Notes under the pieces: generated by a model
What the model was told of the DNA's origin: nothing
What the model saw: only the letters and a program-made list of their open reading frames with translations
The model's database searches: none
Translations under genes and position numbers: made by a program
Shown here: one piece after another, positions 33,988-55,285 of the stretch
Numbering within the stretch: position 1 is the first letter of the stretch
Layout of the letters: each line of letters starts with the position of its first letter
Assembly: GCF_003065425.1 (NCBI RefSeq)
Contig: NZ_CP026949.1
Span: 310,001-374,000, forward strand
From: Mycetocola zhujimingii
Lineage (GTDB): Bacteria > Actinomycetota > Actinomycetes > Actinomycetales > Microbacteriaceae
Reading direction: 5' to 3'
Length of the DNA: 64,000 bases

Positions 33988-34376
33988 GCGTGCGCTCCCG
34001 CGACGTGGCAATTGCTGTCGGACTGGACGTCGTCGCGACGCTGGTTTTCGTGCTCATCGGGCGCGGCACGCACAATGCTGATCCCACGCTCGTGGGCCTT
34101 GCGGCGGCGTGGTGGCCGTTCCTCGCCGCGCTCGCGCTCGGCTGGGTCGTCACCCTCGCGTGGCGCCGTCCGTTCGGACCTGTCTGGCCCGGGCTTGGGC
34201 TCTGGCTGATCACCGTCGCGGGCGGGATGCTGTTCCGCACGCTGTCAGGACAGGGAACGGCTCTCGCTTTCGTCATCGTTGCCACCCTGTCGCTCGGCAT
34301 CCTGCTTACCGGATGGCGCGGCATTGCCGTGTTGATCCGCCGTCGATCATCACTTACTCACGCTCCCTCAGCGTGA
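33984..34376 (+). CDS. DUF3054 small membrane protein
   Basis: 130 residues with four predicted membrane helices: VAIAVGLDVVATLVFVLIGR, WWPFLAALALGWVVTLAW, VWPGLGLWLITVAGGMLFR and TALAFVIVATLSLGILLTGW. The spacing and R/G-rich loops match DUF3054, an actinobacterial and haloarchaeal family of unknown function. Its insertion between resB and ccsB with overlapping start (ATGA) suggests coexpression with cytochrome maturation. No catalytic residues are recognised. Confidence 0.85.
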   Translation: MSVRSRDVAIAVGLDVVATLVFVLIGRGTHNADPTLVGLAAAWWPFLAALALGWVVTLAWRRPFGPVWPGLGLWLITVAGGMLFRTLSGQGTALAFVIVATLSLGILLTGWRGIAVLIRRRSSLTHAPSA

Positions 34377-34387
34377 AACCCGAGAGG

Positions 34388-34393
34388 TACTGT
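34388..34393 (+). promoter_or_regulatory. -10 element of ccsB (leaderless)
   Basis: TACTGT, 6 bases before the GTG at 34400; ccsB may therefore also be transcribed on its own. Confidence 0.4.
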
Positions 34394-34399
34394 TAAACC

Positions 34400-35443
34400 G
34401 TGGATCTCAACGAACTGTCCGTCCTCGCCCTCTGGTCCGCCATGGCGATCTACGCGCTGGCGTTCATCGCCTTCGCGGCCGACCTCGCCAAGCGCTCAGC
34501 CGACGTCACGGCGGCCGCAGAGCTGACCGAGGGCGACAGCGCGAGCGCGCCCGTGGCTGCAACAGTCGGCTCAGCAGGGAACGCCATGGCCGCAGCATCG
34601 GCGGATAAGTCGGCGTACTCGGGGCGTCGCCCCGTCGGGCCGCTCACGCGCACTGACCCGGACGCGCCGCAGGTCCAGGCGAAGAAGTCGGCTGTGCTCC
34701 GGGTTGCCGTCGCACTGACTGTGCTCGGGCTCCTGCTTCACCTGACCGCAGCGGTCACCCGCGGCGTTGCCGCCGAGCGTGTTCCGTGGGCCAACATGTA
34801 CGAGTTCGCCATGACCGGCACACTCCTCATCATTGCGACCTACCTCGTCGTGCTCACCCGGGTCGACCTGCGCTTCCTCGGCACCTTCATCGTCGGCCTC
34901 GTGCTCGTCATGCTCGGTCTCGCCGCCGTGAACTTCTACGTCGAAGTGGTTCCGCTTCCGCCGGCACTGCAGTCCGCGTGGCTCGTGATCCACGTTTTCG
35001 TCGCGTCGACCGGAACGGCACTGTTCGCGCTCGGGTTTGCGTTGTCCGTTCTGCAACTCGTGCAGCACCGCCGGGAAACGAGCGGATCAGACCTGAAGTC
35101 GCTCAAGCTCAAGTTCGTCGCGACGCTCCCGTCGGCGGCGCGCCTCGAGAACCTCGCCTACCGGTCCAACATCGTCGCGTTCATTCTCTGGACGTTCACC
35201 CTCATCGCCGGTGCGATCTGGGCAGAGCGCGCCTGGGGCCGCTACTGGGGCTGGGACACCAAAGAGGTCTGGACCTTCATCATCTGGGTGATCTACGCCG
35301 GATACATCCACGCCCGCGCGACGCGCGGCTGGCGTGGATCCCGTTCGGCGTGGCTGTCGATCATCGGCTTCGTCGCGGTGATCTTCAACTTCTCGATCGT
35401 GAACCTGTTCTTCAAGGGTCTGCACGCGTACTCGGGCCTCTAG
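34400..35443 (+). CDS. ccsB: Cytochrome c maturation protein CcsB/ResC
   Basis: 347 residues, GTG start. An N-terminal membrane helix is followed by an Ala-rich cytoplasmic stretch, then about six membrane segments. The haem-handling tryptophan-rich motif is WGRYWGWDTKEVW near residue 278, with partner histidines in LVIHVFVASTG and YIHARATRGWRG. It transports haem and attaches it to cytochrome c together with ResB. The stop codon lies inside the first unit of the repeat array that follows. Confidence 0.95.
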   Translation: MDLNELSVLALWSAMAIYALAFIAFAADLAKRSADVTAAAELTEGDSASAPVAATVGSAGNAMAAASADKSAYSGRRPVGPLTRTDPDAPQVQAKKSAVLRVAVALTVLGLLLHLTAAVTRGVAAERVPWANMYEFAMTGTLLIIATYLVVLTRVDLRFLGTFIVGLVLVMLGLAAVNFYVEVVPLPPALQSAWLVIHVFVASTGTALFALGFALSVLQLVQHRRETSGSDLKSLKLKFVATLPSAARLENLAYRSNIVAFILWTFTLIAGAIWAERAWGRYWGWDTKEVWTFIIWVIYAGYIHARATRGWRGSRSAWLSIIGFVAVIFNFSIVNLFFKGLHAYSGL

Positions 35444-35866
35444 CCCGGTCTGGACGTCGACTCCGGCCTGTACCCCGGTCTGCACGGCGACCGCTGCACA
35501 TCCATCGTTGCGCTGCAGAAGCTTCTGCAGCGCGGGGCAAGGACCTGCAGCGCTCGATGGCGTAGAGCCCAGTCCGCCTGCAGCGCTCGACGGCGCAGAG
35601 CGCCCAAACCTGCCTGCAGCGCTCGATGGGCAACGCGCCCGCCCGACTCGGGCCTGTAGCCCGGCGTCTGCACGTCCGCTCAGCCCTGTACCGCGGTCTG
35701 GACGTCGACCGCTGCACTTCCAGCGTTGCGCCGCAGAAGCTTCTGCAGCGCGGGGCAAAGACCTGCAGCGCTCGGTAGCGCAGCGCCCGAACCGGCCTGC
35801 AGCGCTCGACGGCGTAGTGCCCAGCCCGCACTGCAGCGCTCGATCAGTAAGACCACTCAGGGCAGC
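35435..35866. repeat. Two-level intergenic repeat array between ccsB and menC
   Basis: Three unit types recur in the same order twice. X units (about 30 bases, GGCCTGTA.CCCGGTCTG) start at 35435, 35465, 35651 and 35683. A P unit (49 bases, with GCAGAAGCTTCTGCAGCG) lies at 35496-35544 and 35714-35762, differing at 4 positions. Y units, each starting CTGCAGCGCTCG, are at 35545, 35578, 35614, 35763, 35797 and 35831 (spacing 33-36). The block X-X-P-Y-Y-Y repeats with a period of about 216-219 bases. ccsB and menC are convergent here and no protein-coding gene is supported in the interval. Confidence 0.9.
35513..35530. repeat. Perfect 18-bp palindrome
   Basis: CTGCAGAAGCTTCTGCAG reads the same on both strands. 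The second copy at 35731-35748 has one mismatch. It is the centre of the P unit of the repeat array. Confidence 0.9.
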
Positions 35867-35877
35867 TGCAGCGAGGT

Positions 35878-36882
35878 TCAGCCCAGCGCCGGTGCGGTGT
35901 CGCCCTCTGTCAGCAGCTCGTAGCAGCGCGACACCCGCTCCAGCCACCAGTCGCGACGCGCAGCCGATGCCGCATAACCGTCGATCAGCCGAGGCGTCGG
36001 GGTGACCCTGCGCACATCGATCGATCCGCCGGATGCCTGCATCGGGGCATCCGTCACATCGGCCGACAGCAGCGACGCCGTACCGAGCCCGCAGTCGTAG
36101 TCGAGCTCGGGAATCACCGACGCGAGCCACGCCCCCATCGACAGGCCAACCGAAGTGTCGAGTGCACTCGACACGACGACGGGAAGCCCGGCCTGGGCAA
36201 TGATGTCGAGCGAGCGACGGATGCCGCCGAGCGGCTGCGCCTTCAGCACGAGAATGTCAGCGGCGCCAGCCCGGGCAACGTTGAGTGGGTCGGCGGCCTT
36301 GCGCACGCTCTCGTCAGCGGCGATCGGCACGCCCATGTACTTCGTCCTGCGGCGGATTTCGACGAGCTCCGCAACCGTGGTGCAGGGCTGCTCGACATAC
36401 TCGAGGTCGTACTCGGCAAGGGCGTGGATGGCGTGCTCGGCCTCGTCGATGTTCCAGCCGCCGTTCGCATCGATGCGGATCCGTGCTTCCGGGCCGAGGA
36501 TGTCGCGGACGGCACGGACGCGCGCGACGTCTTCGGCGAGTCCCTGGCCGCGTTCGGCGACCTTGACCTTTGCCGTGCGGCATCCGTCGAACCGCTTGAG
36601 GATTCCGGCGACGCGATCGACGTGCACCGATGGAACCGTGGCGTTCACCGGGATGCTGGAGCGCAGGGGAGTGGGCAGGTCGCCGAACGCGAACTCAATG
36701 GCGGCCCGAAGCCAGGTGGCGCTCTCGGCGTCGTCGTATTCGACGAACGGGGAGAACTCACTCCATCCGTTCGGCCCCTCGAACAGCAATGCTTCGCGTT
36801 CCTCGATGCCGCGGAACCTGGTGGCGAGGGGCCGCGCGACGACCCGCGCTGTGTCGAGGAGATCGTGGAGCTGTGGACGCAT
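35878..36882 (-). CDS. menC: o-Succinylbenzoate synthase
   Basis: 334 residues of the enolase superfamily. It dehydrates SHCHC to o-succinylbenzoate in menaquinone synthesis. The general-base lysine is in TAKVKVAE near residue 104. The metal ligands are Asp in RIDANGGWN, Glu in YVEQP and Asp in IAADESVRK, and the second lysine is in ILVLKAQPLGG near 225. The actinobacterial MenC N-terminus (VVARPLATRFRGIEEREALL) is shorter than in E. coli. It is divergent from menB with 44 bases between starts. Confidence 0.94.
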   Translation of the reverse strand: MRPQLHDLLDTARVVARPLATRFRGIEEREALLFEGPNGWSEFSPFVEYDDAESATWLRAAIEFAFGDLPTPLRSSIPVNATVPSVHVDRVAGILKRFDGCRTAKVKVAERGQGLAEDVARVRAVRDILGPEARIRIDANGGWNIDEAEHAIHALAEYDLEYVEQPCTTVAELVEIRRRTKYMGVPIAADESVRKAADPLNVARAGAADILVLKAQPLGGIRRSLDIIAQAGLPVVVSSALDTSVGLSMGAWLASVIPELDYDCGLGTASLLSADVTDAPMQASGGSIDVRRVTPTPRLIDGYAASAARRDWWLERVSRCYELLTEGDTAPALG

Positions 36883-36914
36883 GCTTCCAGTCTGGCATCC
36901 GTTGCTGCCGTCGT

Positions 36915-36920
36915 TAGGCT
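36915..36920 (+). promoter_or_regulatory. -10 element of menB (leaderless)
   Basis: TAGGCT, 6 bases before the ATG at 36927; a GGAG between them is too close to act as a normal ribosome-binding site. Confidence 0.5.
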
Positions 36921-36926
36921 GGAGCC

Positions 36927-37832
36927 ATGACCGTGTCAGAAATATTCGATGAGACCCAGTGGGCGGATGTGACGGGGTTCGATTCCCTCACCGACGTGAC
37001 CTACCACCACGACACGACGGGCCGCATCGCACGCGTCGCGTTCAACCGGCCCGAGGTGCGCAACGCGTTCCGGCCGCACACGGTCGACGAGCTGTACCGG
37101 GTGCTCGAGGATGCGCGCACCAACTCCCGAATCGGTGTCGTGCTGCTCACCGGCAACGGTCCGAGCCCGAAGGACGGCGGCTGGGCGTTCTGCTCGGGTG
37201 GCGACCAGCGCATCCGTGGCCGTGACGGCTACAAGTACTCAGACACCGAGTCGGCCGGGGGAGTGGACCCCGCCCGTGGCGGTCGCCTCCACATCCTCGA
37301 AGTGCAGCGACTCATCAGGTTCATGCCGAAGGTCGTCATCGCCGTCGTTCCCGGTTGGGCTGCCGGCGGTGGCCACTCCCTTCACGTCGTCTGCGATCTC
37401 ACGATCGCCAGTCGCGAGCACGGCAAGTTCAAGCAGACGGATGCCGATGTCGGCTCCTTCGACGCCGGTTACGGGAGCGCATACTTCGCCCGTCAGATCG
37501 GCCAGAAGTTCGCCCGTGAGATCTTCTTCCTCGCCGAGGAGTATTCGGCAGAGCGCGCGTACCAGATGGGCGCGGTCAACGCCGTCGTTCCACACGAGGA
37601 ACTCGAATCAACCGCTCTCGACTGGGCGCGCACGATCCTCGGGAAGTCGCCGACAGCCATCCGGATGCTCAAGTTCGCGTTCAACGCGGTCGATGATGGC
37701 ATGGTCGGTCAGCAGGTGTTCGCCGGCGAGGCAACGAGGCTTGCGTACGGAACTGACGAAGCCGTTGAGGGTCGTGACTCCTTCCTCGAGAAGAGGGAGC
37801 CGGACTGGGGCCCGTACCCCTGGCAATACTGA
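36927..37832 (+). CDS. menB: 1,4-Dihydroxy-2-naphthoyl-CoA synthase
   Basis: 301 residues of the crotonase family. It cyclises o-succinylbenzoyl-CoA to DHNA-CoA. The N-terminal active site has RPEVRNAFRPHTVDELYR. The oxyanion-hole region is WAFCSGGDQRIRGRDGYKY near residue 88, with VPGWAAGGGHSLHVVCDLT near 140. The Asp-containing TDADVGSFDAGYGSAY motif near 170 and the terminal FLEKREPDWGPYPWQY are MenB-specific. The length is typical of actinobacterial MenB. Confidence 0.97.
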   Translation: MTVSEIFDETQWADVTGFDSLTDVTYHHDTTGRIARVAFNRPEVRNAFRPHTVDELYRVLEDARTNSRIGVVLLTGNGPSPKDGGWAFCSGGDQRIRGRDGYKYSDTESAGGVDPARGGRLHILEVQRLIRFMPKVVIAVVPGWAAGGGHSLHVVCDLTIASREHGKFKQTDADVGSFDAGYGSAYFARQIGQKFAREIFFLAEEYSAERAYQMGAVNAVVPHEELESTALDWARTILGKSPTAIRMLKFAFNAVDDGMVGQQVFAGEATRLAYGTDEAVEGRDSFLEKREPDWGPYPWQY

Positions 37833-38516: not shown

Positions 38517-38533
38517 GGCTACCGCCGGCAACG

Positions 38534-38569
38534 CGAAGGGCGAACGGATGCCAATCCGTTCGCCCTTCG
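38534..38569. terminator. Bidirectional hairpin between DoxX and LLM genes
   Basis: A perfect 16-bp stem, CGAAGGGCGAACGGAT with its complement, and a 4-base loop, between convergent genes. No U-run follows on either side. Like the proC hairpin it includes the CGGATGC motif. Confidence 0.65.
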
Positions 38570-38658
38570 TGTGCGCGGGCACCAAGCACGGTGACCGAGA
38601 CCGCCGACCGCCTCGGTTGTGGCGCCATCCCGGCGCCTGGGGGTCGTACTCGGAACTG

Positions 38659-47376: not shown

Positions 47377-48471
47377 ATGGCCAAGAAGAAGAAGTCAGCG
47401 GAGACGAAGTCAGCGGAGAAGAAGTCCGAGAAGAAATCGGCGAAGAAGTCCGCGGAGAAATTGGCGGAGAAGCTCGCCGCGAAGAAGTCAGCGGCGAAGG
47501 TGGCCGCGAAGGCAGCGGAGAAGTCGGCGGAGAAGTCGGCGGCGAAGCCCGGCAAGAACAGCCAGGCATCCGCGTGGCGGTCAAGCCCTGCCTCACTTTT
47601 ACGGGTCAGCGACGGCTTCGTCCTCGCTGACGTCGCCCCGGAGTCGACCCCGGGCTTCTCGGGCGGAAAGCGGGAAGGGCGCCAGGAGCTGGCCACCGAT
47701 GCCGTGGAGCTCAGCGCCATTCAAGAGCGGCTGTTCGCTTCCTCGAAGGGCGGGGCCCCGGATGCCGTTCTCCTGGTTCTGCAGGCCATGGACACGGCGG
47801 GTAAAGGCGGGATCGTTCGCCACGTCGTTGGTTCCGTCGACCCCCAGGGCGTGACACTCACCGCTTTCAAGGCGCCGACGCGGGCAGAGCGCAGGCACGA
47901 TTTCCTCTGGCGAATCGAGAGGCGGGTTCCTGAGCCCGGCTTCATCGGAGTGTTCGACAGGTCGCACTACGAAGACGTCCTCATCGGTTCGGTTCGAAAG
48001 CTCGCGAGTGACGAAGAGATCGAACGCCGTTTCGACGCCATCCTCGACTTCGAATCACGCCTCGCCGACCGAAACGTACGCGTCGTGAAGGTGATGCTCC
48101 AGATCAGCCCGGACGAGCAGAAGCGCCGCCTGGCTGAGCGGCTGGACCGCCCTGACAAGCACTGGAAGTTCAACCCGGCAGACATCGACGAGAGAGAAAT
48201 CTGGCCCGACTACCAGGCGGCGTACCAGCGTGTCTTCGACCGGACGTCGACCGAGGGAGCCCCGTGGTTCGTCGTGCCGGCCAACCACAAGTGGTACGCA
48301 CGCGCCGCGGTGCAGCGCCTGTTGCTCGACGCGCTCACCGATATCGACCCGCAGTGGCCGGTAGCCGACTTCGACGTGGCCGAGCAGAAGGCACGGCTCG
48401 CAGCGTCCACGCTGGGCCAGGCATCCGCTCTGCCCACACAGCACTCGACGTCGAAAGTGACGCCGCTCTAG
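47377..48471 (+). CDS. Polyphosphate kinase 2-type nucleotide kinase with histone-H1-like N-terminal tail
   Basis: 364 residues from the ATG at 47377; an ATG at 47317 would add 20. The first 60 residues are almost only Lys, Ala, Ser and Glu (AKKSAEKLAEKLAAKKSA), like histone H1 or the tail of actinobacterial HupB. The PPK2 domain follows, with Walker A VLQAMDTAGKGGIVRHV near residue 133, Walker B VFDRSHYEDVLI near 193, lid region SPDEQKRRLAERLDRPDKHW and FVVPANHKWYARAAV. PPK2 enzymes phosphorylate nucleotides with polyphosphate or the reverse. The tail may bind DNA or polyphosphate. Its 3' end overlaps convergent menF by four bases. Confidence 0.9.
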   Translation: MAKKKKSAETKSAEKKSEKKSAKKSAEKLAEKLAAKKSAAKVAAKAAEKSAEKSAAKPGKNSQASAWRSSPASLLRVSDGFVLADVAPESTPGFSGGKREGRQELATDAVELSAIQERLFASSKGGAPDAVLLVLQAMDTAGKGGIVRHVVGSVDPQGVTLTAFKAPTRAERRHDFLWRIERRVPEPGFIGVFDRSHYEDVLIGSVRKLASDEEIERRFDAILDFESRLADRNVRVVKVMLQISPDEQKRRLAERLDRPDKHWKFNPADIDEREIWPDYQAAYQRVFDRTSTEGAPWFVVPANHKWYARAAVQRLLLDALTDIDPQWPVADFDVAEQKARLAASTLGQASALPTQHSTSKVTPL

Positions 48472-54463: not shown

Positions 54464-55285
54464 ATGTCGATCGAGCAGCCTCCCCAGAACCCGAACTCTC
54501 AGCCCGTCCCGCCGGTAAGCGCGCGACCTCAGCAGGGCACAGCGCCGCAGGGCGGTTACGCGCCTCAGGGCGGGTACGCACCACAGGCAGGCTATGCACC
54601 GCAGGCCCCCCAGAAGCAGGCGCGGCCGGTTGACAAGAGCATCCTGCGCCAGCTGATCTTCGGTGGAGCCGTCGTCGTCGGGCTCGAGGCAGTCACCGGC
54701 CTTCTCGGCTTGATCGGGAGCGCCGTCTATGGCATCGGCAACGGGTTCGTGTACTTCGTTATCTCTGTCGTCGCTGCCGCCGTCTTCGCCGGACTGGTCG
54801 CGGTCAGCGCGCTCTACATCGTGCCCATCGAGAAGGCTCGCACCACTGTCGAACTGCTCAAGAAGATCGCGATCGGCGGCGCGGTCGGCCTCGCCGGGCT
54901 CGTCATCATCAACCTCATCTGGGCTGTCATCACCGGCGGTTCGTACCTCGGTGAGGCCATCTTCAGCTCCGCGATCGTCGGATCGCTGTCCACCGCCCTC
55001 ATCTACACGGCCCTCTTCGCCCTCGGAGTTCTCATCGCGCGGGCTGTTCCCGCTCGTCAGCAGGGCCCCGCAGGACAGTTTGGTGCTCCTCAGGGCCAGG
55101 CGCCTCAGGGATACGCTCCCCAGCAGGGTCAGGCGCCTCAGGGATACGCTCCCCAGCAGGGTCGCGCTCCTCAGGGGTACGCCCCCCAGCAGGGCCAGGC
55201 CCCCCAGGGTTACGCGCAGCAGCAGGCGCCGCAGTACCCCGCCGCTCCTCAGGGCCAGCAGCCGCCGCTCCCGCCCAGGCCGTAA
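54464..55285 (+). CDS. Membrane protein with PQG/Y-rich disordered tails
   Basis: 273 residues. The N-terminal tail (about 1-60) is Pro/Gln/Gly/Tyr-rich (GGYAPQGGYAPQAGYAPQAP). The centre has four membrane segments: IFGGAVVVGLEAVTGLLGLI, FVYFVISVVAAAVFAGLVAV, IAIGGAVGLAGLVIINLIWA and LSTALIYTALFALGVLIARA. The C-terminal tail carries about four 11-residue repeats of the form APQGYAPQQGQ. Such tails suit phase separation or cell-wall contact and are common in actinobacterial envelope proteins. No catalytic residues. The function is unknown. Confidence 0.8.
   Translation: MSIEQPPQNPNSQPVPPVSARPQQGTAPQGGYAPQGGYAPQAGYAPQAPQKQARPVDKSILRQLIFGGAVVVGLEAVTGLLGLIGSAVYGIGNGFVYFVISVVAAAVFAGLVAVSALYIVPIEKARTTVELLKKIAIGGAVGLAGLVIINLIWAVITGGSYLGEAIFSSAIVGSLSTALIYTALFALGVLIARAVPARQQGPAGQFGAPQGQAPQGYAPQQGQAPQGYAPQQGRAPQGYAPQQGQAPQGYAQQQAPQYPAAPQGQQPPLPPRP
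55100..55225 (+). repeat. In-frame 33-bp tandem repeat in the PQG-rich gene
   Basis: Units start at 55100, 55133, 55166 and 55199 (the last partial), each encoding APQGYAPQQG(Q/R). The first two are almost identical at DNA level; later ones carry synonymous changes. Slippage could change copy number without breaking the frame. Confidence 0.85.

Follow-up and report, generated by a model that had tools for sequence, protein, structure and literature searches.

How did the interval between the convergent genes ccsB and menC of Mycetocola zhujimingii come to be filled with a two-level array of repeats, and what are its units? We analysed a 64,000-nucleotide stretch of the genome (positions 310,001 to 374,000 of contig NZ_CP026949.1, forward strand; hereafter the window), in which an initial annotation had described the array as X-X-P-Y-Y-Y, twice, arising by unit expansion followed by duplication of the whole block. 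Self-comparison of the repeat array (35435-35866) bears out both the arrangement and the proposed hierarchy: the segments 35448-35570 and 35666-35788 share 87% identity over 123 nt at an offset of 218, and the blocks recur with a period of 218 bp. Because the two blocks have diverged from each other, an assembly artefact appears unlikely. The features of the locus are collected in Table 1.

Table 1. Features of the ccsB-menC interval, in window coordinates.
Feature	Coordinates	Strand	Basis
ccsB, cytochrome c assembly protein, upstream convergent gene	34400..35443	+	ORF; Pfam PF01578, E 6.4e-44
X0, native 3' end of ccsB including stop codon, source of X units	35430..35448	+	Repeat comparison and ccsB ORF
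X copies, ccsB 3' end in tandem, 30-bp period	35448..35487	+	Identity to ccsB end 23/30 (35447) and 16/30 (35477)
Element copy 1, 69-bp imperfect palindrome with four GCNNCA/TGNNGC boxes (P + first Y)	35488..35556	+	Predicted fold -41.5 kcal/mol
Two additional Y units (CTGCAGCGCTCG at 35578, 35614), outer arms duplicated with flank	35557..35645	+	Repeat comparison
X units of block 2	35646..35705	+	35646-35664 95% identical to ccsB end
Element copy 2, 69-bp imperfect palindrome	35706..35774	+	65/69 bases identical to copy 1; predicted fold -36.8 kcal/mol
Two additional Y units of block 2 (CTGCAGCGCTCG at 35797, 35831)	35775..35866	+	Repeat comparison
menC (name from the initial annotation), enolase superfamily, downstream convergent gene	35878..36882	-	Pfam PF13378, PF18374

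The units themselves are not the three independent types that had been proposed. The conservation of P between copies stands, at 46 of 49 positions on recount where 45 had been given, and P together with the first Y forms a single imperfect palindrome of 67-69 bp. All six copies of CTGCAGCGCTCG that had defined the Y units are present (starts 35545, 35578, 35614, 35763, 35797 and 35831) and are the only ones in the window, against 0.04 expected from shuffles; in the 245.5 kb of the genome searched, this dodecamer occurs outside elements in the array only. Y loses its standing as a unit of its own: in both blocks the first Y is simply the outer arm on the 3' side of P, and the additional Y units are, on repeat comparison, duplicated outer arms of the palindrome. 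Nor is X a separate unit type. The end of ccsB at 35430-35448 recurs at 35460-35478 (84%) and at 35646-35664 (95%), and by this comparison X is a tandem duplicate of the 3' coding end of ccsB, stop codon included.

Searching the whole genome (3.19 Mb, two contigs) with the array returned 98 matches on both strands, which resolve to a sharply bounded palindrome 67-69 bp long. A covariance model built with a hand-written hairpin structure gave 112 matches, corresponding to 56 elements each found on both strands, two of them new; all matches are full length, and the weakest has an E value of 2.9e-5 under a limit of 1e-3. These 56 elements are drawn from the best 150 of 2829 first-look candidates, and a few may be missed. 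The array is real as a local feature, while its palindrome (P + Y), with 56 copies genome-wide, is not local; the suggestion that the array is possibly a structural or mobile repeat stands. When neighbours less than 400 bp apart are joined, the elements fall into 42 chromosomal sites, nine of which hold two to four copies each. Neighbours at the multi-copy sites are spaced 147-218 bp apart, with a single exception of 386, and share one orientation at eight of the nine; the flanks look alike by eye in the clusters of the window, at 636 kb and at 2930 kb.

The elements are located predominantly behind genes. Gene calls made with a small purpose-written gene finder assign 28 of the 56 to intervals with convergent flanking genes, 23 to tandem and 3 to divergent intervals, and 2 to the interior of a predicted gene, so that 51 lie between convergent or tandem genes and 54 outside predicted genes; one of the two intragenic placements is doubtful, since the orthologous gene of the congener G004 is much shorter. 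By hand count, 18 of the 42 sites are convergent, compared with 10 of 63 gene junctions in the window, the array's own junction included (Fisher P 0.003). In the loci retrieved, a set selected because it contains elements, convergent junctions make up 47 of 223.

A long imperfect hairpin is predicted from either strand of the element (mean -43.2 and -44.8 kcal/mol for the two strands), with arms that pair over ~30 bp and a loop mostly of 4 nt. In the alignment of 54 copies (A1), inspected by eye, each arm carries two GCNNCA boxes whose starts lie 19 bp apart. All four boxes are retained in 49 of the 54 copies, the NN positions being more variable than the rest, and binding of a protein to the four conserved boxes of each copy is plausible. 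The outer 11-bp stem, counting Watson-Crick pairs only, is mismatch-free in 9 of the 54.

We favour, with a probability of roughly 0.6, the reading that a dispersed, non-coding palindrome of REPIN-like type, amplified in this lineage by a trans-acting factor and tolerated at gene ends, has expanded locally into the array. Such a factor would recognise the boxes and the palindrome and thereby amplify the element within the lineage, and copies would persist where they are least harmful, after stop codons. Insertion of a palindrome after ccsB would probably have been followed by replication slippage or template switching, which would have produced X from the ccsB end and Y from the outer arm before the whole block was duplicated. 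The dispersed palindrome accounts in this way for the array between ccsB and menC and yields a searchable model for others. Against the REPIN-like reading, the conservation of the boxes in diverged copies could reflect a host function.

We infer that the palindrome moves; the searches for a mobiliser returned the following. The Y1 tyrosine transposase family (PF01797) has no match in the genome itself, while 5 of 14 control genomes match. A Pfam scan of 30 genes, 28 of them beside multi-copy sites and clusters, assigned families to 25 and none to 5 and contained one RecQ-type helicase and no transposase or recombinase. Flanking direct repeats of k = 2-10 showed no excess around the 54 copies that would indicate target-site duplication, and a blastn search with the array found nothing in plasmid and phage collections. 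In an all-against-all blastp comparison of the 378 predicted proteins at the loci, the largest common clusters comprise 10 proteins each, from five and from four genomes, and are unannotated. If true, a large actinobacterial REPIN-like family with no detected Y1 transposase would imply either a second route of palindrome replication or a host function that maintains it.

By ccsB, the nearest named relatives belong to Mycetocola (76-78% identity), and of five congeners searched, G004 holds two elements and the other four have no match. Both G004 elements occupy sites orthologous to elements of our genome, one of these sites being a divergent region, and three further orthologous pairs were found (two in genus g54, that of genome G134, and one in g25). 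A first model matched 12 of 150 genomes of the family. A broader, pair-aware model, built from 37 68-mers of 10 genomes, matched 55 of 398 Microbacteriaceae genomes (25 of the 85 genera) at unchanged length and geometry. In a sample of the order it matched 11 of 297 genomes, 6 of them outside Microbacteriaceae; both counts include our genome and G004. As the best 33, 12 and 17 candidates per genome were scored in the 150-, 398- and 297-genome searches, respectively, copy numbers are lower bounds. Among 41 elements from other genomes, found without use of gene context (4 passed the looser limit only), 24 lie in convergent, 13 in tandem and 2 in divergent intervals, and 2 within genes. The middle stem is more alike within genomes (identity 0.65, 130 pairs) than between them (0.38, 536 pairs), a difference beyond all 2000 label permutations of the 37 68-mers that also holds without our own genome, and this fits new copies arising inside each lineage. 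The literature covered, with subscription journals mostly outside its scope, gave no description of such an element in Microbacteriaceae.

A tentative extension of the favoured reading is that these elements belong to a Micrococcales superfamily of replicating palindromes, defined by geometry (length ~68 nt, with a pair of direct boxes in each arm at a 19-bp spacing) and not by sequence, which would spread by an enzyme other than REP-type transposases and whose box sequences would differ by lineage. We regard this as possible rather than probable. Across genera, length is near-constant in searches whose models are biased towards it. When 105 loci (1.29 Mb) were scanned without regard to sequence, 44 long hairpins emerged, chosen independently of the models; a significant direct repeat within the arm at offset 19 is found in 6 of the 44, against 0.9 expected. 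Of the other offsets among the 14 tried, 18, 20 and 21 gave 1, 2 and 1 hairpins, and three of the remaining ten gave one each. The six include a hairpin of G004 at site 2698156, where our genome has 133 bp between the flanking matches and G001 has 26, a point in favour of the REPIN-like reading; G002 and G004 carry a different hairpin there, its TCAGGA boxes spaced by 19 bp, and the sequence in G003 and G005 is longer and unlike. A sequence-blind scan of 400 kb of G004 found 5 long hairpins, and the 2698156 hairpin has no further copy, as a second amplified family in G004 would show, in the DNA searched, which includes those 400 kb.

Position and folding can also be read as the marks of a host transcript-end device, an RNA hairpin that forms from either strand and ends or protects the flanking mRNAs, as a U-less bidirectional terminator or a 3' stabiliser. 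The placement of 51 of 56 own and 37 of 41 other-genome elements between convergent or tandem genes is in line with such a device, as are the predicted folds of both strands. In relatives, moreover, long hairpins of other sequence number 36 per 837 kb against 3 in shuffles, and 15 of 80 loci have one within 200 nt after ccsB (hand count); that such hairpins recur between ccsB and menC in relatives speaks for a hairpin function at this junction. Against this reading, only 2 of 54 copies are followed, on either strand, by 8 bases with at least four T, and no terminator-like site was found at 34300-37000. The canonical form of the bidirectional terminator first suggested for the array is thereby set aside, the U-tract being absent. 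Furthermore, in the outer and inner stems of the transcribed strand of 22 tandem copies, G-U and A-C appositions are equally frequent (14 to 14), and at site 835963 no matching element occurs in G002 or G004.

Evidence for selection on pairing in single copies, which bears on this device, is mixed. Within the genome (54 copies), whole-stem covariation does not exceed shuffles, and RNAalifold alone recovers 5 pairs only from A1. Over all 34 nt, pairing with the copy's own partner (15.96) matches that with permuted partners (15.85, sd 0.38). The variable middle stem lies above expectation (3.52 vs 2.51, sd 0.30), a point in favour of the transcript-end device, and the outer (6.96 vs 7.64, sd 0.19) and inner stems (5.17 vs 5.77, sd 0.20) lie below; copy orientation may matter in these within-genome figures of arm complementarity. 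Comparison of the three orthologous pairs that align without gaps shows 12 stem pairs with pairing in just one of the two species, against one two-sided and two one-sided changes that keep pairing, which counts against the device; this tally leaves out the two pairs with G004, which have unequal lengths or indels. In the G004 pair at 992034, both arms differ together by eye, and this, with the better own-partner pairing of the middle stem, gives signs of selection on pairing. Between genomes, 185 stem cells have changed on both sides against 72 in shuffles, with 86% paired against 69% (79% against 53% in the middle stem alone), a result weakened and partly ascertained because pair-aware models selected the sequences. 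The stem-pair results within the genome and in the orthologous pairs indicate that the boxes are kept more strictly than pairing, but some selection on pairing may act. On balance, a transcript-end device is unlikely to be the explanation of the array.

The boxes raise a different possibility, that the element is a chromosome-organisation site at which a DNA-binding protein occupies the four boxes and which is kept for a nucleoid or segregation function near the origin. Retention of the GCNNCA boxes in 49 of 54 copies with two more variable middle bases agrees with this, and in this genome the sites are biased towards the origin: the half nearer dnaA (C1:1141) holds 35 of the 42 (P 1.5e-5), and 17 of 23 regions do so after merging sites within 20 kb (P 0.035). 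The lack of a match in four of five congeners, with two elements in the fifth, argues that this is not a genus-essential site, and we consider such a role improbable. A further improbable reading is that of a miniature inverted-repeat element, two adjoining ends with paired transposase boxes that a conventional transposase would move: the two boxes per arm 19 bp apart, an offset shared by 6 of the 44 model-independent hairpins (0.9 expected), suit it, but target-site duplication is lacking in 54 copies and annotation of 30 proteins identified no partner element.

The REPIN-like reading leaves the question of how near the element stands to described repeats. In the parts of the source drawn on here, REPINs of Pseudomonas fluorescens SBW25 are extragenic REP doublets that form a symmetrical palindromic hairpin, with conserved outer regions, a variable spacer and compensatory changes between the sides; they form clusters of ordered tandem repeats that include flanks, the largest of four units, and are linked to RAYT transposases (PMC3116915). 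Compared with that description, our element is likewise a dispersed, extragenic palindromic hairpin (56 copies, 54 outside predicted genes, with predicted folds), has conserved outer and variable middle regions, with compensatory changes between the sides as a further parallel, and occurs in ordered clusters including flanks and of up to four units (nine multi-copy sites among the 42, eight of them with all copies in one orientation). It differs in being a single 67-69-bp unit with two boxes per arm and in its actinobacterial host. By inspection, the A1 consensus starts with CGAG and ends with CTCG, so that neither end carries the GT[AG]G or CGTC tag of REPINs and REPs; because this tag is not seen in the element and no Y1 transposase was found in the genome, we do not file the element as a REPIN.

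For GTAG and CGTC REPs, the portions of PMC3733652 drawn on here report that the repeats are intergenic and lie downstream of genes, for the most part in convergent and unidirectional positions, that their stems of 5-13 bp bear a tag (GTAG or CGTC) and often contain GT pairs, that CGTC repeats are without a dedicated transposase, and that tagged REPs come mostly from Proteobacteria; in its main text the word actinobacteria is absent. Against that partial account, our element resembles both groups in its gene-downstream, mostly convergent or tandem positions, and the CGTC group in that no dedicated transposase was found, whereas its stems of ~30 bp, the tag not seen and G-U not above A-C set it apart.

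Several other element classes were considered. The array is not CRISPR-like, as the initial annotation had stated: its repeat anatomy lacks equal repeats with unique equal-length spacers. Like intrinsic terminators, the element is a hairpin after a stop codon; unlike them, it lacks a U-tract (2 of 54 copies; 0 sites at 34300-37000), has near-constant length and forms one dispersed sequence family. Integron attC sites have GTTRRRY / RYYYAAC boxes, and the conserved box here is GCNNCA. MITE character is not indicated, with no target-site duplication at k = 2-10 in 54 copies. A DNA uptake sequence would be abundant singly across genes, and the motif is not: in 245.5 kb, CTGCAGCGC occurs 88 times in elements, 7 times in coding sequence and 4 times elsewhere (all in this array), shuffled 9-mers of its composition having a mean of 7. 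The two Rfam matches in 35300-36000 reach 18.7 and 16.7 bits, below their gathering scores of 49 and 75. BIME, ERIC, NEMIS and similar families are dispersed palindromic repeats of bacterial genomes, to which the element is likened by description only.

Further repeats and palindromes were observed at these loci. Long hairpins with GAACACCCG-type boxes at L028:5188-5253 and L023:3903-3966 possibly represent a second palindrome type of one genome. At L015:2641-13508, a segment of ~10.9 kb (encoding a beta-galactosidase, a LacI-type regulator and others) has elements near both ends; the congener G002 lacks the segment and has ~140 bp between the flanking genes. The commonest 8-mer of the window is CGGATGCC, with 66 matches against 5.5 expected in shuffles, 53 of them coding and 13 intergenic; its density per 10 kb is ~10 in the window, compared with 4.8 over 22 loci of G004 and 3.0 over 80 further loci of Microbacteriaceae type. 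It is also included in a long imperfect hairpin between convergent genes at 38522-38581 of the window, and tandem repeats lie within predicted genes at 47385-47547 and 55091-55226.
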